This document shows positions 2,872 to 12,763 of a stretch of 21,829 nucleotides of DNA, piece after piece (the first letter of the stretch is position 1; each line of letters begins with the position of its first letter). A model generated the notes under the pieces. The model did not search any database. It was not told the DNA's origin and was given only the letters and a program-made list of their open reading frames with translations. The stretch is from the IMG/VR virus record IMGVR_UViG_3300037488_003559, positions 1-21,829 of that record; one strand, written 5' to 3'. This DNA is from a virus. The position numbers and the translations under genes were made by a program.

Positions 2872-3885
2872 ATGAAAGCCATTGACATTGGAACCTGTTT
2901 TTTGGTAAGTGCATGCCAGGATTCAAACAACAAGATCCAGTTGAAGTCTATTCGAGATGCCTTCATTGACATGGAAAATGAACCCCAGACTAAGAAAATG
3001 CTGGGAATGTCCAAGGTCGATTTCATTGAGGCTGGTGAAAAGCTTCACATAATCGGTGACTCAGCCGTGGTCATGGCAAACATCTTTAAAAGAGAAGCTC
3101 GCAGGCCTTTGTCAAAAGGTGTCCTAAGTCCCGGCGAAACTGATGCGGAAAAAATTCTCCTGGTTCTGATCGAGAACATCCTCGGAAAAGCCACGAACCA
3201 AGGGGAAACATGCTTCTTCAGTGTGCCCGCTGCCCCGGTCGACAGGGACATTGATATAGTCTATCATCAGGCGATGTTCTCAAAGCTTATAGGGTCTCTT
3301 GGATATCGACCTGTTGCCCTTAATGAAGCCGCCGCCATAAGCTATAGCAACGCAGCAAAAGAGCAGTTTTCAGCCCTGTCCATTTCATTCGGTGCCGGGA
3401 TGTGCAACATCTGCCTCATGTTCAGAACCATGATTGGAATGGCTTTTAGTATCAGTGTAGGCGGGGATTGGCTCGATGAATCAGCAGCCAAGGCTACGGG
3501 TTCGACTGCCAGCAGAATTCAGTCGATCAAAGAAAGAGGCATCAACCTGGTAGATCCCAATGAGGGAGATCCCAAGACTATCCGTGAGCGAGAGGCCCTG
3601 GTCATTTACTATAAGAGCCTTGTACTCAGAGCTCTGGACGCAATCAAGGCGGAATTCAACAAACGCCAGGGATCTATTGAATTGCCGAATGCTGTGCCTA
3701 TTATTCTGTCTGGTGGGACCAGTCTTGCACGGGGATTCAGAGATCTTTTTGAGGTTGGTTTTAATACTGTCAAAGATAAGTTCCCCATACCCATATCCGA
3801 AATTCGTATGGCGACAGACCCTCTCAATGCCGTAGCTCAGGGTCTTCTCGTGGCTTCCATGAACTATGACGAAGGAATGAAGTAA
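2872..3885 (+). CDS. Actin-like protein of MreB/MamK type
   Basis: The 337 aa are close to the length of bacterial MreB. Motifs in order: phosphate-1 (IDIGT, residues 4-8, with Asp5); a RPLSKGVL segment at 78-85 matching the MreB RPxxDGVI region; connect-1 (LNEAAAISYSNA, about 150-161); phosphate-2 at 170-178; VGGDWLDE (196-203) and the helix after it (GSTASRIQSIKE), both very MreB-like; the adenosine motif ILSGGTSLARGF (278-289); and connect-2 (DPLNAVAQGLL, 316-326). In phosphate-2 the usual DxGxGT is SFGAGM here, so the Asp and the Thr are replaced by Ser172 and Met177; hydrolysis may be slow or absent. The Shine-Dalgarno is AAGAGGAG. The stop is one base before the next ATG, so it is co-translated with the 465-aa neck-like protein. 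Roles in virion assembly or in positioning of phage parts are inference. Confidence 0.85.
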   Translation: MKAIDIGTCFLVSACQDSNNKIQLKSIRDAFIDMENEPQTKKMLGMSKVDFIEAGEKLHIIGDSAVVMANIFKREARRPLSKGVLSPGETDAEKILLVLIENILGKATNQGETCFFSVPAAPVDRDIDIVYHQAMFSKLIGSLGYRPVALNEAAAISYSNAAKEQFSALSISFGAGMCNICLMFRTMIGMAFSISVGGDWLDESAAKATGSTASRIQSIKERGINLVDPNEGDPKTIREREALVIYYKSLVLRALDAIKAEFNKRQGSIELPNAVPIILSGGTSLARGFRDLFEVGFNTVKDKFPIPISEIRMATDPLNAVAQGLLVASMNYDEGMK

Positions 3886-3886
3886 A

Positions 3887-5284
3887 ATGTCACAGACTAT
3901 TCCATACACCATTCCTAATTTTGTCCCGGCACATGGAATTTATCAGAATCTCCATGTCGGGGTCAAAAGAAGAATTATAGATGAGACGGAACTGGCATTT
4001 GACCAGCATCCGGCTTTCTCTGAAAAGGTTCGAGTCTATAATAAATTCCCTTATGAGGAACGGGTTCAGTATGGAGTAGTTCTCAGAAATACGTCGGCTT
4101 CTCAGATAAGGTTGTCACCTGATAATTTCATGTCGGATTTGATATCACATGTACAGATTGCCCGGCAGACTTCTTATCCTGGTCTGGCCATTGAATGGGT
4201 TCGGGAGAATGCCTGGCATGTGACCAAGGTTATTGAGGAAGATGTTTCAGATCAGTTAGGGGCAAATCAGCGTTTGTTCCTAACTTCTCAACAGATATGT
4301 GCAGGAATAGATGAGACTCATTTTGCTACTAATCGAGGCCAGGTTGCTGTGACGGTTGATGGGGTTGAGACTGTACCTGAACTGGTTGAGGGCATTAATA
4401 AGACAGTCATGCTCTATAATAGCCCTGGTGCCGGAAGTGTCGTGAAAATAAAGTACTATGTGAGGAATATTGTCCCCTATGGTATCTATTGTATTGACTT
4501 TATCGAGAATAATCAGTTCGTGGTGCAACCGGCCTATATAATTGAGAATGAAGTCCTGATCAGTATTACTACCGGTACCGAGGTCTCAGCTCAGATAGCA
4601 AATTTTCCTCTGGACCAGTATTCCGAGCAGATCAACATAGCGTTTAGGGATAATACAAAGATTCAGGCCCTAGCTCGGGGCACGGATTATTTGATCGACT
4701 ATACCACGGGTCTTGTGACATTTCTGCAACCTCTGGCCAGGAATTACAGGATATTAGCTGACTACCGGTATCAGCCAATGAGCTACAACAATGGCCCATA
4801 CACTTTCTCTGAATACCAAGAGAATCATGTGGCAATACCTGGAGTTGTTCTTTCGATTGGTCGGCGAGCGAAGAAGGGTGACCAGCAGGTAGTTATAGTT
4901 TCACAGTTCCGGGAACAGCAGGCTAAAATTTACGGTGGTCACTGGGAGATGTCGTTGGATTTATCGGTTATTGCTAAGGATCCCATGCAGATGGAGCAGA
5001 TGAGTGACCATCTCATTTCCTATCTGTGGGGTCAGAGGAAGAACGACCTGGAATTTGAGGGCATTACCTTAAATAGGGTGGAACCGGCTGGTGAGACGGA
5101 GGAGGTTCATATTGATACGACTGGGGATATGTACTATGAGTCTTCTATTTCTATAAATCTTCAGTCGGAGTGGCAGAAATTCTTGCCGTACTTGGCGATA
5201 CTTAAGATCAAGAATATCACTCTTGTCCCGGATCTCAGGCCTGTGATCAGGGCTACGGTTGTGGGGTATGAGAGATTGACTTAA
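3887..5284 (+). CDS. Neck or tail-terminator-like structural protein with beta-module inserts (465 aa)
   Basis: The ATG follows the actin-like stop by one base. Residues 117-193 (starting EEDVSDQLGANQRLF, ending VKIKYYV) match the sheath repeat, whose first copy begins REDVSAQISGATRNF and ends ILATYYYK. A second partial beta segment lies at about 264-296 (TDYLIDYTTGLVTFL, ILADYRYQ). The C-terminal part (about 340-440) has a beta strand, a helix with a DPMQMEQMSDHLISYLW pattern, and a last strand pair before SEWQKFLP. This layout recalls tail-terminator or completion proteins that cap the tail at the neck. Position just upstream of the sheath agrees. The structural role is likely; the exact identity is inferred from layout rather than from a recognised family. 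Confidence 0.8.
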   Translation: MSQTIPYTIPNFVPAHGIYQNLHVGVKRRIIDETELAFDQHPAFSEKVRVYNKFPYEERVQYGVVLRNTSASQIRLSPDNFMSDLISHVQIARQTSYPGLAIEWVRENAWHVTKVIEEDVSDQLGANQRLFLTSQQICAGIDETHFATNRGQVAVTVDGVETVPELVEGINKTVMLYNSPGAGSVVKIKYYVRNIVPYGIYCIDFIENNQFVVQPAYIIENEVLISITTGTEVSAQIANFPLDQYSEQINIAFRDNTKIQALARGTDYLIDYTTGLVTFLQPLARNYRILADYRYQPMSYNNGPYTFSEYQENHVAIPGVVLSIGRRAKKGDQQVVIVSQFREQQAKIYGGHWEMSLDLSVIAKDPMQMEQMSDHLISYLWGQRKNDLEFEGITLNRVEPAGETEEVHIDTTGDMYYESSISINLQSEWQKFLPYLAILKIKNITLVPDLRPVIRATVVGYERLT

Positions 5285-5344: not shown

Positions 5345-5767
5345 GTGCCATTACGAGAGTACGAATGTAGGATGTGCGGGTACGAGTTTGATGAACTTGT
5401 GGGCGTGAATAAGGACGATTCAGAAATTGTCTGTAAAATATGTGGGGGTGGGGTTGAGAGAAAAATGAGTTCTTTTTCTGCTGTGGTAGCAGGGGGAACC
5501 TCAAACGAGCCCATAGACATGAGAATTGGTCGGGATGCAGATGCACGTTGGAAGGCCATCTCAGAGAGGCAGACAGTTCGTCGTGGAGATAAAGTTCCTG
5601 AGCCGGTTGTCACTCCAAGGGACAGAGACGGAAAATACCTCCCGATGGAAGTGGGGAATCTGGCCGAAAGGGACAAGAGAAAAGAATATTCGGGTGCCTT
5701 GCAGGAACATAGGCAAGAGCGGGCGAAGCGTGGTCAGGGTCAGTTTACGGATGCCGGGGCTTTTTGA
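5345..5767 (+). CDS. FmdB-type zinc-ribbon protein (140 aa)
   Basis: GTG start, chosen because AAGGAGG lies at ideal spacing before it and the domain begins at once (PLREYECRMCGYEFDEL). C8/C11 and C30/C33 form a zinc ribbon followed by GGGVERKMSSFS, the pattern of the FmdB/putative-regulatory zinc-ribbon family. The family is named after a regulator of formamidase genes, but most members have no known role, and copies occur in phages. Residues 55-140 are charged, Arg-rich and probably extended (IGRDADARWKAISERQ, ERAKRGQGQF), like a nucleic-acid-binding or packing tail. It sits between the neck-like gene and the sheath, with its own strong ribosome-binding site. It could be a late regulator or a small virion protein. 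Confidence 0.8.
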   Translation: MPLREYECRMCGYEFDELVGVNKDDSEIVCKICGGGVERKMSSFSAVVAGGTSNEPIDMRIGRDADARWKAISERQTVRRGDKVPEPVVTPRDRDGKYLPMEVGNLAERDKRKEYSGALQEHRQERAKRGQGQFTDAGAF

Positions 5768-5880: not shown

Positions 5881-8709
5881 ATGGCGATTGGCCCTTTTTC
5901 CACTGGTTTCGTTTTCCCCGGTGTCTATACGAAGACATTGAACGAACCGCCTCTTGCGACTGCCGCTGGACAGCTACGTATACCGGCTTTCATCGGAGTT
6001 GGCGAAGAGAACGTTGAGGTCGACAACTATGAGATGATTCGTGGTTCGAGCTCGATGGCAGACAATCAGATTGTTCGTGAGGATGTCTCTGCTCAGATTA
6101 GCGGAGCTACCAGGAACTTTACGGTTTCATTTTTTCCCGTTGTTGATGGTAATGGCACTGGAACGGTTACCAACGACCCGACAAAAATCGTTGTCGAGAT
6201 TAATGGCGAGCCTGTGCCTGTGGCTTCTCTTAATGGGACAACAGGTGAAGCTTATCTCGTGAACATTCCGGCGATGGGTGATCAGATTCTTGCAACATAT
6301 TACTACAAGAAAACTGACACTCTGCACACTGACGAAGATCTGAGTGATCAGGTTGATGGATCTCGTCGGACGTTCCGCACGCATTTCTACCCGGTTGTGA
6401 AGGGTGATAATGGCGGAATCACCACGACGGATGTTACCAAAATCACTGTAAAAATCAATAACAATGTTGTGTCTCTCAGTGATCTTGACGGGACTGATGG
6501 CTTCTTTACTCTGGCCTCGGATGCCACGGCTCTTGCTGGAAATACTTTGACGGTAACATATTATGATAACGAGCTTCAGGACACGGCTGATATTCTTCCT
6601 TCTCCGTTTGTCTCCAGTATTATTAAAGTAGGGTATGCGCCTGGAACATCGGATTTTATTGAAGGGACTGATTTCGTTCTTGACACGACAGGTGCTTTTA
6701 GCACAATTCAGTGGGGTTCCTCTTATAAGATCGCTTCGGGTGTGCATAGTAATCCTGCTTCAGAGTATTTCGATGACACTCAGATCACAGGAACTCTGAT
6801 TGATAATGTAATCCGGCGTCGTCCGGCGACGGGAACTGCTGACAGCACTAATATTGATTTTACTTGTGAATATGTTCCTGCAAACGGTGAAGGTCGGGGA
6901 ATTACAACGGATAATCCGGATCTTGTGAAGGCATTTTATGGCACATCTCCTACTGATGCCACTGCCATAGACGTCATTCAGTTGGATGGTGCCACAAGAC
7001 TTGTTACATTAGCTTCAGCGCCTCCTGCAGGAACGAATGTGTATATCTCGCAGTACTATAATTCTCTTCCGGATGATACATGGACTATCACGGATACGAC
7101 CACAGGTGGGACTGGTGTGGGGACATATACAGTTGAGGGTGCCTTTCTTGGAACTGCAATGACTGCGTCCTTGATGCCTTTGGGATCGGGATCTACTGAT
7201 ACATCCGTTTCGGATGCGGATTTTGCGACAGATCTTGCGAATGGCCTTTTCCCGGCAGGACTTGTTGCGACGACTACTTATTCAGATGCTCGTGAGATTC
7301 CGGGTTATGCAAAAGAAGAATATGTTAAATTGGTTTTCACGGATTCAACATCTTACTGGGTGGAGTCAACTGTTTCGGGTGGCTCTGGGTCAGGTAGTGA
7401 TAATACAGGGTATATAAATCAAACATACATTGACTCGGTTACCGGATTCCAAGTAACTATTCTTGAGGGCATAACAATATATGTTGCTGGGGATCAGATT
7501 GTTTTTAAAGTGACTGCGGAGTTCACTACGTCAGTGACACCAACCCAGGCAATTCCAAGTATTAGGGTCCAGGTGAATAATGCTACGGGTGTGGGGGTTG
7601 GTGATACTGCTACTCTCACGACTTATAATAAGTCGGGATCTGAGCCTACTATCGGGTCTTTCTACTATGTCTCGTACTACGAGACTAAGCAGTTTGATTC
7701 TGATGGTTTGACAGATGCTAAGTTGTATACTCAGGAAAAGAATGTCTTCGCGGATACAGGGAAGCTGACGATCAATAACAAACTGGGTCTCGCGGCTCAC
7801 CTGGCTTTCCTGAATGGCGCGGCGGCCATAGCTCTGTTGCAGATTCAGAAGACTACCGGTACAAGTGATGCTCCGGATTCCCGGTACATAGCTGGTATCG
7901 ATTATTTCAATGAACCCATGGAGGCAGGCATCAGGCCCATGTTGATGGAGCCGGTGACAACCTCAACTCCGGTACTTTCTTATTTGAAGACATCGAATGT
8001 CATTCAGACAGGTATCCGGTATGCTAATGAGCGGTATTCCTGGTTTGGTTTCCCGCTTAATACAACTCCGTCGACGGCTCAGACCTATGCCAGGTCAATG
8101 GCAACCGAGCGTATGATGGGGCTGTATCCGGACGGAGCCGTCACCACAGTGCGTGACGATTTCGGAAATGATGTCGAGTACCTTGTGGATGGTTCCATGA
8201 TGGCGGCTGCCGTAGCCGGTCGGGATGTATCGCCTGCATTTGACGTAGCAGAGCCTATGACTAAAAAACCGATTGTGGGTTTCAAACGGCTTTACCGTCG
8301 TATGGATTCAGTCACTGCCGCTCAGGTGGCGAATTCGGGACTGACACTTCTTGAGGAGTTAGCTTCTGGGATTGATATTCGGTTCGCTCTGACCACGGAT
8401 ATCTCGTCAGTTCTGACGAGGACTCCATCGGTTATCCGGACGAAGGATTTCATTCAGAGGGGTACTCGCGAGATTCTGTCGGTTTATATTGGACAGAAGT
8501 TGCTGGCACAGAGGACTTCTGAGATTGAGCAGACTCTGACTTCGTATCTGTCAGCCCTGCAACAGGCCCAGATCATTACGGCTTATCAGGGTGTCAGTGC
8601 AAGTCAGGATGCGAACGACCCGACGATTGTTAATGTTGAGGCGTTCTACAGTCCAGTGTTCCCACTGCTGTGGATTGTCGTGACGTTCAATCTCAGAACT
8701 AGCATATAA
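5881..8709 (+). CDS. Tail sheath protein
   Basis: This is the contractile outer tube of the tail. Start at the ATG behind CGGAGG. Residues 1-50 (FVFPGVYTKTLNEPP, then PAFIGVGE) are the usual sheath N-terminus with an extended arm. The C-terminal third is the conserved sheath core: ARSMATERMMGLYPDG (about 737-752), the EYLVDGSMMAAAVAG segment (766-780), VIRTKDFIQRG (851-861), a helical stretch with EQTLTSYLSALQQA, and the last strand ending FNLRTSI that links to the next subunit. At 942 aa it is well above T4 gp18 (659 aa). The excess lies at about 65-600 and contains at least two clear tandem beta-modules (67-146, 152-231) and a third related one (308-396), probably displayed on the outside of the tail. 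A hairpin follows the gene. Confidence 0.95.
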   Translation: MAIGPFSTGFVFPGVYTKTLNEPPLATAAGQLRIPAFIGVGEENVEVDNYEMIRGSSSMADNQIVREDVSAQISGATRNFTVSFFPVVDGNGTGTVTNDPTKIVVEINGEPVPVASLNGTTGEAYLVNIPAMGDQILATYYYKKTDTLHTDEDLSDQVDGSRRTFRTHFYPVVKGDNGGITTTDVTKITVKINNNVVSLSDLDGTDGFFTLASDATALAGNTLTVTYYDNELQDTADILPSPFVSSIIKVGYAPGTSDFIEGTDFVLDTTGAFSTIQWGSSYKIASGVHSNPASEYFDDTQITGTLIDNVIRRRPATGTADSTNIDFTCEYVPANGEGRGITTDNPDLVKAFYGTSPTDATAIDVIQLDGATRLVTLASAPPAGTNVYISQYYNSLPDDTWTITDTTTGGTGVGTYTVEGAFLGTAMTASLMPLGSGSTDTSVSDADFATDLANGLFPAGLVATTTYSDAREIPGYAKEEYVKLVFTDSTSYWVESTVSGGSGSGSDNTGYINQTYIDSVTGFQVTILEGITIYVAGDQIVFKVTAEFTTSVTPTQAIPSIRVQVNNATGVGVGDTATLTTYNKSGSEPTIGSFYYVSYYETKQFDSDGLTDAKLYTQEKNVFADTGKLTINNKLGLAAHLAFLNGAAAIALLQIQKTTGTSDAPDSRYIAGIDYFNEPMEAGIRPMLMEPVTTSTPVLSYLKTSNVIQTGIRYANERYSWFGFPLNTTPSTAQTYARSMATERMMGLYPDGAVTTVRDDFGNDVEYLVDGSMMAAAVAGRDVSPAFDVAEPMTKKPIVGFKRLYRRMDSVTAAQVANSGLTLLEELASGIDIRFALTTDISSVLTRTPSVIRTKDFIQRGTREILSVYIGQKLLAQRTSEIEQTLTSYLSALQQAQIITAYQGVSASQDANDPTIVNVEAFYSPVFPLLWIVVTFNLRTSI
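6079..6573 (+). repeat. Tandem beta-module repeats inside the sheath gene
   Basis: Two copies of about 80 codons, 6079-6318 and 6334-6573. Shared landmarks: ED(V/L)SxQ at the start, F(F/Y)PVV, T(K)I(V/T)V(E/K)IN, LxGTxG, then TYY at the end. The DNA has diverged much more than the protein pattern, so this is old duplication under selection. A third, weaker copy is at about 6802-7068. Confidence 0.7.
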
Positions 8710-10194: not shown

Positions 10195-10878
10195 ATGGCA
10201 CGGGATACCGATAGCTACATTTTCCGTAAAGGGGTCACGCCAAATACCTTATCGGTTATTTCGTCGAAAAACAGGGTATTCGCATATAATTCTACGGGTC
10301 GTTCTGTTCAGATTGGGGTCATTTCAACATTTGACCCCTCTGAAGCACGCACCATAGAACCTGTACGCGGTATCGGGTTTGGAGATCAGATAGCTGAGCT
10401 TGTTCCTGGGGTCACGGATCCGATGACGATCTCTGTTACCAGGACGGCTTTATATCTTTCGAACATCATGCAGGTTTTCGGATATAAGGCTGGTATTGAC
10501 GGAGTGGCACGTTCACTTAAACACCATCGTTGGCCGTTTGATATTAGGCAGGAACTCGTTTTCAGTGGCCTGGCTGCTGAGAACGTGGATGGCAGTGTCG
10601 TGAAAAATATCAATTCGGTGACGAAGGATTCACGTGATGAGAAGGGCATGTATAATCAATATGCCGTCGTGACTTTTTATGAGGCTTGCTGGATCAGTGA
10701 TTATTCGGTCTCATACGCTTCGGATACGGCTTTGGTGCAGGAAACTGTTACCATTAACGTGTCGGACGTACTGGCCGGACCTGGCAAGTTCCCGTTCACT
10801 CAGTCTGAGATTGAGCCGTACTCGATTCTGGATACTGGAGAGGCTCGTTCGAAGAAGTTCTCGGGATCGATAGTATAA
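10195..10878 (+). CDS. Tail tube protein
   Basis: 227 aa, the usual size for the inner tube of contractile tails. Start at the ATG behind TAGGGGAG. The sequence has the tube-type pattern: an N-terminal beta strand with MARDTDSYIFRKG, strands around GVISTFDPSEARTIEPVRG, the long insertion-loop segment, a middle helix region (TRTALYLSNIMQVFGY, about 81-96), and late strands with QYAVVTFYEACWISDYSVS and QETVTINVSDV. The middle pattern, a RTALYL helix followed by an HHRWPFDI segment, is typical of tubes from large myoviruses. Stacked rings of this protein form the channel for DNA, with the sheath outside. A G-C-rich terminator follows, fitting a transcript that ends after the two most abundant tail proteins. 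Confidence 0.85.
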   Translation: MARDTDSYIFRKGVTPNTLSVISSKNRVFAYNSTGRSVQIGVISTFDPSEARTIEPVRGIGFGDQIAELVPGVTDPMTISVTRTALYLSNIMQVFGYKAGIDGVARSLKHHRWPFDIRQELVFSGLAAENVDGSVVKNINSVTKDSRDEKGMYNQYAVVTFYEACWISDYSVSYASDTALVQETVTINVSDVLAGPGKFPFTQSEIEPYSILDTGEARSKKFSGSIV

Positions 10879-11102: not shown

Positions 11103-11702
11103 ATGGATCTGAATCGTGTTTTATCTGCTGTGCGAAAAAAGTTTTCTCCGGGTAAAATGGTGGATTTTAATGAAGAGGGGTTTCATTTCATGATAGAGCC
11201 CCTGTGCTCTACAGATGAGTCAAAGGTTTTGACAGCCCTTAAAGATGTGGAGGATACTCAATATATTGAGAGCCTAAAGCGTCAAACTCTGGCATGTGCA
11301 ATTAAAAGGATCAAGATTGATGCTGATGGGGAAGAGGCCGCTTGCGAGATTGATCTTACCGTCGATGATATCGAATACGAAGAAAAGGGTGAGAAGAAAA
11401 TAAAGTCGAAGTACCTTTATATGATGGAGTTTTTTGGTAAGTTTCCCTCGGCCTTAGTTGACGAGCTATTTGAGGCCTTTTCAAATATGAATATGGAAGT
11501 TCAGGCTCGAGTAAAGACTGGCGTTAAGTATGAAAGGTTTATTCTTTCAGAAACAGTTCCTGAGGAGAAAACATCTAAATTCAAACGGACAAAGGATACT
11601 GTTCCGGCTGAAGAGCTGAGTCAGGAGGAGCGCCTGGCGAAAAAGGTTGAGAAAGAAATTGAACAGGCCAATGCAAAAATAAGCGAGGCTGTTCCGCAAT
11701 GA
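11103..11702 (+). CDS. Putative tail assembly chaperone, first gene (199 aa)
   Basis: Lies directly between tube and tape measure, the position held by tail assembly chaperones (the G/GT pair of lambda and its many analogues), which coat the tape measure before tube growth. The N-terminal part has a small domain with FHFMIEPLCSTDESKVL and a helix rich in basic and polar residues (SLKRQTLACAIKRIKI). The middle (YMMEFFGKFPSALVDELFEAF) is helical. The C-terminal 50 residues are Lys/Glu-rich and likely flexible. The gene ends in ATGA, overlapping the start of the next gene by four bases. Function rests mostly on position and on the paired-gene layout, as these proteins diverge quickly. Confidence 0.7.
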   Translation: MDLNRVLSAVRKKFSPGKMVDFNEEGFHFMIEPLCSTDESKVLTALKDVEDTQYIESLKRQTLACAIKRIKIDADGEEAACEIDLTVDDIEYEEKGEKKIKSKYLYMMEFFGKFPSALVDELFEAFSNMNMEVQARVKTGVKYERFILSETVPEEKTSKFKRTKDTVPAEELSQEERLAKKVEKEIEQANAKISEAVPQ

Positions 11703-12763
11703 CGAGGGATGAGGCATACAGGTCTTTGTCAGACCTGATTTGTAAGGGTTTTTTAACAGTGGGCATGGAAATGGCAGGCAAGACCCTTATTTTTAAAACA
11801 ATCAATGACCGGGAGTATGACCTTATCCGGCTCTATTCCGGTATTCCCTCGGATTCGATGAATTATTTGAGGACCAATCTGTTTTTCCTGGCTTTTTCTA
11901 CTTTCTTGATTGATGGCCAGAATGCTCTTGCTGATCGAGAGCAGAAAATAGGTAGTCTGTATGACTTTTTCTCAGATCTTCCTATGGTTATTACAGCGAC
12001 AATTCAAGTTGAGTTGGGGCTCTTGAAGAAGAAGGTTATCGAGGCAGCTAAATATTTGGAAGGATTTTGTTATACTACGTACTCCAGGGATCTATGGCGA
12101 TCGATCAAAGGTTTACCCAATAAAGAGGAGTTTACCGGCATAAAAGGGACGAGTTTTTTGGGATTAAATGCTTATCAGCATAGTTGGATATTATTGAATA
12201 GGGTCATGGATACGGAGGAGGAGGAAGATAGGGCGTTTGATAATGCAATTTTGATTGCCTCGGCACAAAATGCAAAAGGTGCTAAGTCCGTGAGGGGAAA
12301 ACACGACTCTGCTGTTCAAACTCGAGACGAAAGGCGTAAGAAACTGGCTCGGAAAGGGTCTTCGGATAAGGCTCAGTGGTCTCCGGAGGGGTGGGCGGCG
12401 CCGGTTGATACTGCGGAGGAGTTGGTGGCGGAACTTGAGAGGCAGATGCGTGGAGTTAAGGATAAGCATGACATATTCGTTGAAGAATATATGAAACAGA
12501 TGGAGGAGAAAGAAGCCCAGGCCAAGAAAGAGGAAGAGGATAAACTGGTGGTAATTCGTCGGAGGCGTAAGGCAGAGGGTGGGCTCCCATTATCGGGTTC
12601 TCAGAGGGTTCTGACCCCTGAAGAGAACGCGAGAATGAACGCAAATATGAGGAAACCACATAATAATCTAATGATTTTACCATCAGATGAAATGGCGAGT
12701 CCAGAGGAACGTGATCGGTTTTACAAAAAAATTGGGTCTAAATTGTTAATAGGTAGGGAATAA
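11699..12763 (+). CDS. Putative tail assembly chaperone, second gene (354 aa)
   Basis: Starts at the ATG of an ATGA overlap with the previous gene, in its -1 frame, and ends three bases before the tape measure ATG. The first 200 residues are helical with hydrophobic patches (MNYLRTNLFFLAFSTFLI, about 57-74; FFSDLPMVITATIQVELGLL). Residues about 205-300 are very rich in Lys, Arg and Glu and look like a coiled coil or disordered arm, and the C-terminus is basic-polar. In many phages the second chaperone is made by ribosomal frameshifting; here termination-reinitiation at ATGA would couple the two. The -1 frame upstream is open only from 11663, so a fusion would need a slip within the last 13 codons. 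The role is inferred from position. Confidence 0.65.
   Translation: MTRDEAYRSLSDLICKGFLTVGMEMAGKTLIFKTINDREYDLIRLYSGIPSDSMNYLRTNLFFLAFSTFLIDGQNALADREQKIGSLYDFFSDLPMVITATIQVELGLLKKKVIEAAKYLEGFCYTTYSRDLWRSIKGLPNKEEFTGIKGTSFLGLNAYQHSWILLNRVMDTEEEEDRAFDNAILIASAQNAKGAKSVRGKHDSAVQTRDERRKKLARKGSSDKAQWSPEGWAAPVDTAEELVAELERQMRGVKDKHDIFVEEYMKQMEEKEAQAKKEEEDKLVVIRRRRKAEGGLPLSGSQRVLTPEENARMNANMRKPHNNLMILPSDEMASPEERDRFYKKIGSKLLIGRE

Follow-up and report, generated by a model that had tools for sequence, protein, structure and literature searches.

Why would a phage keep an actin gene between the genes for its neck and its tail sheath? We addressed this question in a 21.8-kb virus record from IMG/VR (IMGVR_UViG_3300037488_003559; hereafter the window, 21,829 nucleotides), in which the genes examined here all read on the + strand. 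The gene in question, here called VOL, occupies positions 2872-3885 on the + strand and encodes 337 aa; its open reading frame is intact, with an ATG start and GAGGAG ahead of the start codon. An initial annotation made from the sequence alone had described it as an MreB/MamK-type actin with an altered phosphate-2 loop, located one base from a 465-aa neck-like gene, and its coordinates, motifs and spacing were all correct.

VOL does lie between virion genes, as had been proposed. On its upstream side are A (3-1349), a neck or minor tail protein whose 5' end is cut by the contig and which is related to Tunturi_5 gp322 and phage G gp175; B (1693-2175), a zinc-ribbon-like protein present only in the window's own sublineage; and C (2285-2830), a putative volactin adaptor. 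A single base separates the VOL stop from the ATG of D (3887-5284), a 465-aa neck or tail terminator protein, whose fold matches the phage 812 neck protein (E 3e-7) and whose Tunturi_5 relative is annotated as "tail terminator". D is followed by E (5345-5767), an FmdB-type zinc-ribbon protein (Zn_ribbon_8), and by F (5881-8709), a 942-aa tail sheath with a weak PF17482 match and a relative in the Tunturi_5 tail sheath. Further downstream are H (10195-10878), a virion structural protein and probable tail tube related to Tunturi_5 gp329, and I/J (11103-12763; overlapping frames at 11103-11702 and 11699-12763), probable tail assembly chaperones with a weak match to phage G gp181. All of these genes are on the + strand. 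E is a constant companion between D and the sheath, as constant as VOL (74 of 80 loci), and is also found in Tunturi_5.

We assigned VOL to a family by profile search. In hmmscan, Pfam Volactin (PF25216) matched residues 2-328 with 220.1 bits (profile positions 3-320/321), a full-length match exceeding the curated cut-off of 35 bits, whereas MreB_Mbl (PF06723) gave 29.6 bits in a partial match to residues 59-205 only, and NCBIfam mreB (TIGR00904) gave 26.4 bits against a cut-off of 365.75 bits. Because of this difference between PF25216 and PF06723, VOL is, by profile, a member of the archaeal volactin family rather than of MreB/MamK. Membership of MreB/Mbl was considered separately and rejected, since both a full-length match and a DxGxGT phosphate-2 motif are missing, the latter reading SFGAGM. 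The original classification thus holds in its exclusion of ParM, which is not among the family, sequence or fold matches listed for VOL, and in the MreB-like length and fold, but not in the family itself. VOL is approximately 36-38% identical to archaeal volactins. No convincing phage family or phage actin-fold match was obtained from PHROGs or BFVD, and PF06723 produced no match above its cut-off in any of the 19 volactin-bearing huge phages searched, suggesting that annotation with such older libraries would miss VOL.

The AlphaFold2 model of VOL, based on a 30-sequence alignment, has an actin fold (mean pLDDT 93.0, pTM 0.90), and among solved structures it is nearest in fold to MreB (E 1.3e-14) and MamK (TM 0.72/0.74). 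Searching the PDB with the family profile recovered MamK at E 1e-10, with E152 aligned to MamK E143 and S172 to MamK D161. Phosphate-1 (D5-I-G-T) is kept, as initially noted, and so is the adenosine loop (S-G-G-T-S) near residue 280; the catalytic-type E152 is also retained, and phosphate-2 reads S172-F-G-A-G-M, followed by N179. Residues D5, G7, T8, E152, S172, G174, G176, N179, D199, D202, G281 and G282 are invariant in the 30-row alignment. Purifying selection on VOL is strong, with NG86 dN/dS values of about 0.006 to 0.12 in the three measurable phage pairs that remained after excluding pairs with saturated dS, among them the window and its nearest relatives.

The altered phosphate-2 loop had been read as a sign of weak or absent hydrolysis. 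The motif is present, but it is not a loss specific to this phage: the aligned column is Ser in every phage, archaeal and bacterial relative with sequence there, the window's SFGAGMCN corresponds to SFGAGMTN in 25 of 25 haloarchaeal loci, and a second phage group, described below, has SxGxGMxN in all 81 members. One stretch matching "DxGSGI" was taken as a stray regular-expression match, the aligned column being Ser throughout. Judged from the alignment, SFGAGM is the normal state of the Volactin family and not a phage oddity. Phage-specific loss of catalysis was ruled out as an inference from the motif, which is family-wide. The volactin of Haloferax forms filaments in vivo with fast polymerization and depolymerization (PMC10869688); in MamK, replacement of the equivalent Asp (D161A) makes filaments static (PMC5059902). 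Because the motif is family-wide and the Haloferax protein is dynamic, neither weak hydrolysis nor a decoy function follows from it. The family may hydrolyze ATP slowly or by a changed geometry, and these comparisons give no indication that VOL is a dead enzyme or a decoy peculiar to the phage. Read alone, the changed loop would have given a wrong "dead enzyme" story.

To describe the gene's place across phages, we examined the neighborhoods of VOL relatives. Profile search identified at least 292 IMG/VR loci, many on contigs of 200-470 kb, and the INPHARED record LR745208, which also carries a volactin relative, is 485 kb long. Of the 292 loci 80 were kept, and where at least 4 kb of room was available D was found downstream of VOL in 74 of 80 loci, E in 74 and the sheath in 75, showing that relatives keep the gene beside the 465-aa gene. 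Upstream, C was present in 57 of the 58 loci with room and A in 55. The reverse search, starting from D, recovered VOL in 52 of 53 loci with room upstream. Of 12 contigs of 286-470 kb that were searched, 11 had one copy of VOL and the twelfth had two. We also observed the whole A-C-VOL-D-E-sheath block in a phage fragment deposited as an Actinomycetota MAG contig (L089, RFZO01000031.1), whose place in that bin either is a binning mistake or points to a host.

The nearest cultured relatives are Tunturi_5, an isolated 309-kb myophage, and Bacillus phage G. Both keep the A-D-sheath order, with no VOL match anywhere in either genome and no C match in the stretches read of the two; no cultured phage carrying VOL was found. 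This order without VOL suggests that the module was added to an older neck-sheath cassette or lost from it. The only VOL-less member of the lineage, L172 (5815-9191), keeps A, D, E and F and has neither VOL nor C. As L172 is a 65-kb fragment and the C-VOL pair could sit elsewhere in that genome, it may represent either a natural deletion of the module or its relocation.

The absence of C together with VOL in L172, and its presence in nearly all other loci, are what would be expected of a co-inherited neighbor in a two-component system. C encodes about 181 aa; its frame was listed from GTG 2210, and relatives start at ATG 2285. It consists of a conserved N-terminal domain, a variable linker and a conserved C-terminal tail (...GMVSSIEAKTSETSGEDTMNALQALKAMQGIK). 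Pfam and PHROG scans of C returned scattered chance-level matches only, with no recognized DNA-binding domain. The adjacency of C and VOL is maintained in lineages without D next door, and in many group-B phages other genes, such as ferritin-like ones, separate the two. In the main subgroup (L034-L088), the gene between C and VOL is ferritin/Dps-like (PF00210, E 1.1e-7 in L053:8433-9074). Look-alike genes of 276-318 aa, inserted close to C and VOL in different members (L016:1373, L028:9134, L033:8927, L053:9100), appear homing-endonuclease-like by eye.

Inspection of the neighbors of cellular volactins raised the idea that the tail of C is shared with them, and we tested it using an HMM built from phage tails only. 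The HMM was searched against every ORF other than volactin in 85 cellular volactin loci, a pool of 4,462. As a result, 24 matches were obtained at E<=0.05, 23 of which were encoded on the strand of volactin and no more than 200 bp from it. Same-strand ORFs this close make up 4.2% of the pool, giving a hypergeometric p of about 1e-31; this value exaggerates the association because of the many spurious ORFs in the pool, and the family-collapsed count is safer. The haloarchaeal loci are interrelated; once matches were collapsed to families without other similarity, four of five were neighbors and the fifth was 561 bp away. The reversed HMM, used as a control, gave no match, and in phage loci all 72 matches were C. 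The tail is short, and single-protein E-values are modest (2e-5 to 0.05). An iterated tail model, which was trained on the neighbors and is not independent of the first round, found tail-bearing neighbors in Halobacteria (24/39), Omnitrophota (9/12), Magnetococcales (9/13) and Planctomycetota (1/14). With an HMM of the N-terminal domain of C, the four best matches (E 0.012-0.34) came from four Planctomycetota and were in each case the gene upstream of volactin, at a distance of 77-82 bp.

This conserved tail, common to C and the neighbors of cellular volactins, appears to be newly recognized here, and the tail of C may bind VOL. In the haloarchaeal partners, about four TM-like windows are seen along with a tandem pair of tails, and no TM window was found in phage C. 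Haloferax volactin filaments bind the membrane by their tips (PMC10869688), and the TM-bearing haloarchaeal partners fit this tip-to-membrane binding. The shared tail would therefore be a testable candidate for the volactin-binding factors, which are described as unknown in the Haloferax study, and it predicts a membrane anchor gene adjoining volactin in haloarchaea.

In the phylogenetic tree, phage VOLs of the window's kind form one clade apart from archaeal and bacterial volactins (SH-aLRT 96-97). A second group of huge phages, with 108 loci and members as large as 595 kb, encodes a volactin approximately 27% identical to the window VOL in a different gene neighborhood, with relatives of A, D, sheath and tube not beside it. 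The two phage groups are placed apart in the tree; one shared clade for both is compatible with the AU test, which did not reject it (p 0.08). The volactin of the second group (L010:14986-16005, L259-L338) lies between conserved small genes that encode about 76 aa each. Of these, the upstream gene ends with an acidic linker followed by a W-x-IP-[DE]F....K..FGK tail, and may be a partner.

Other arrangements were observed in cells. Omnitrophota (L094:9538-12594, L096, L100 and others) have tandem volactins, one of about 330 aa and the other of about 480 aa, and after them a gene encoding a C-like tail. In haloarchaea (L256, G035, G038, G042, G043), a second volactin domain occurs in open frames of 780-1258 aa, which are perhaps fused proteins or read-through frames in GC-rich DNA. 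The matches in Magnetococcales and Omnitrophota also raised Mad28 of magnetotactic bacteria, which may be a candidate to consider.

That the lineage keeps VOL and C amid its neck and tail genes suggests that these huge phages carry their own two-part filament system. We regard it as moderately probable that the pair is an actin-plus-adaptor module of the late virion cluster whose filaments position or help to assemble virions; the fixed site among virion genes points to such a role. A large lineage of huge myophages would carry this two-gene module, composed of the VOL actin and the small adaptor C. VOL would be an ATP-binding protein that assembles into dynamic filaments at a late stage of infection, a timing taken from gene position alone. 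The C-terminal tail of C would hold VOL, as ParR or AlpA hold their actins, and its N-terminal domain would couple the filament to phage cargo, namely the capsid or neck, the tail, or the genome. Virions would be gathered, positioned or assembled on VOL filaments, a PhuZ-like role carried out by an actin. A search of the 19 volactin phages with a tubulin model yielded no tubulin (the phiKZ control was positive, PhuZ being found weakly). Counting against the model, the phosphate-2 Asp is missing in the whole Volactin family, and hydrolysis could be slow.

A broader and more tentative reading extends this scheme to all volactins. Those of archaea, bacteria and phages could be two-component machines, in which one actin works with interchangeable anchors (a membrane protein, a coiled-coil protein or a phage cargo protein) that share a volactin-binding tail. 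Two huge-phage groups would carry such machines, and that of the window group would be a cytoskeleton for virions late in infection, comparable to the PhuZ spindle but built of actin.

The main rival to a filament-forming module is that VOL is itself a virion part or a dedicated assembly ATPase, that is, a virion-resident actin/Hsp70-fold ATPase or a head-tail-joining chaperone that serves neck and tail without filaments. Its strict site between A and D, often overlapping them or a few bases apart, would suit such a part, and closterovirus HSP70h, which has a virion role and is among the BFVD fold matches of VOL, provides a precedent for this fold in a virion. However, we consider this unlikely. 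Tunturi_5 and phage G build the neck-sheath cassette of A, D and sheath (in Tunturi_5 also E) without VOL, so that the fixed virion part initially suggested is not needed to explain the gene's place, and L172 retains A, D, E and F although it has neither VOL nor C. Moreover, the volactin of the second phage group is located elsewhere, with no relatives of the A, D, sheath or tube genes adjoining, the relatives of VOL are filament proteins, and the partner tail is common to cells.

More doubtful still is an AlpAC- or ParMRC-like role, in which VOL filaments would serve the segregation or positioning of phage DNA, or of a replication compartment, the virion cluster being merely a convenient late-operon site. 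AlpAC is a precedent for this (PMC4446434), and the two-gene actin-adaptor layout, usually in one copy per genome, is consistent with it; however, C has no recognized DNA-binding domain, and the AlpAC genes are early, whereas the C-VOL pair is fixed among virion genes. It is very improbable that VOL acts as a decoy of weak catalytic activity, disturbing cell shape by co-assembly with host MreB or volactin or by capping them. In favor of this, phosphate-2 lacks the Asp whose loss in MamK D161A freezes filaments (PMC5059902). Against it, the substitution is family-wide and includes an actin that is dynamic in vivo (PMC10869688), VOL resembles MreB only remotely, its nearest relatives are actins that stand on their own and have a conserved gene beside them, and a decoy would need neither the partner gene nor the fixed place that VOL has.

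Finally, we compared the C-VOL module with known systems. The main huge- and jumbo-phage papers checked in the open-licence literature mention tubulin and no volactin-type actin, and no phage system of this layout was found described there, in agreement with the initial annotation; it may have been reported earlier in other papers. Among phage cytoskeletons, the PhuZ/TubZ tubulins and a few plasmid-like actins are the main ones known. The volactin of Haloferax volcanii (HVO_2015 family, PF25216) belongs to the same Pfam family as VOL over its full length, and haloarchaeal volactins share the SxGxGM phosphate-2 loop (25 loci) and, in many haloarchaea, a tail-bearing neighbor gene. In contrast, VOL is phage-encoded within a neck-sheath cluster, and its partner C is soluble rather than a membrane protein. 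MreB and MamK are the closest solved folds, with the catalytic-type Glu and phosphate-1 in common; their phosphate-2 Asp and Thr are replaced in VOL, and MamK is detectable by profile only (E 1e-10). ParM/ParR, in which an adaptor with a C-terminal tail lies beside the actin gene, resembles C-VOL in architecture only, no sequence relation being seen.

AlpC with AlpA may be regarded as the nearest phage precedent of C-VOL and PhuZ as its nearest functional parallel. In the Corynebacterium prophage CGP3, the adaptor AlpA couples phage DNA to AlpC filaments (PMC4446434), and, as with C-VOL, a phage-encoded actin and its adaptor are in the same operon. However, AlpA binds phage DNA and the alp genes are early, whereas C-VOL is among late virion genes. 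PhuZ of phiKZ-like jumbo phages is, like VOL, a phage-encoded cytoskeletal NTPase of large myophages, with a proposed role in virion or genome positioning; it has a tubulin fold, unlike the actin fold of VOL, and the volactin phages searched gave no tubulin match. Compared with these systems, a volactin with a fixed site among the virion genes of a widespread lineage of huge phages would represent a distinct way to organize infected cells or, alternatively, an actin that takes part in virion assembly.
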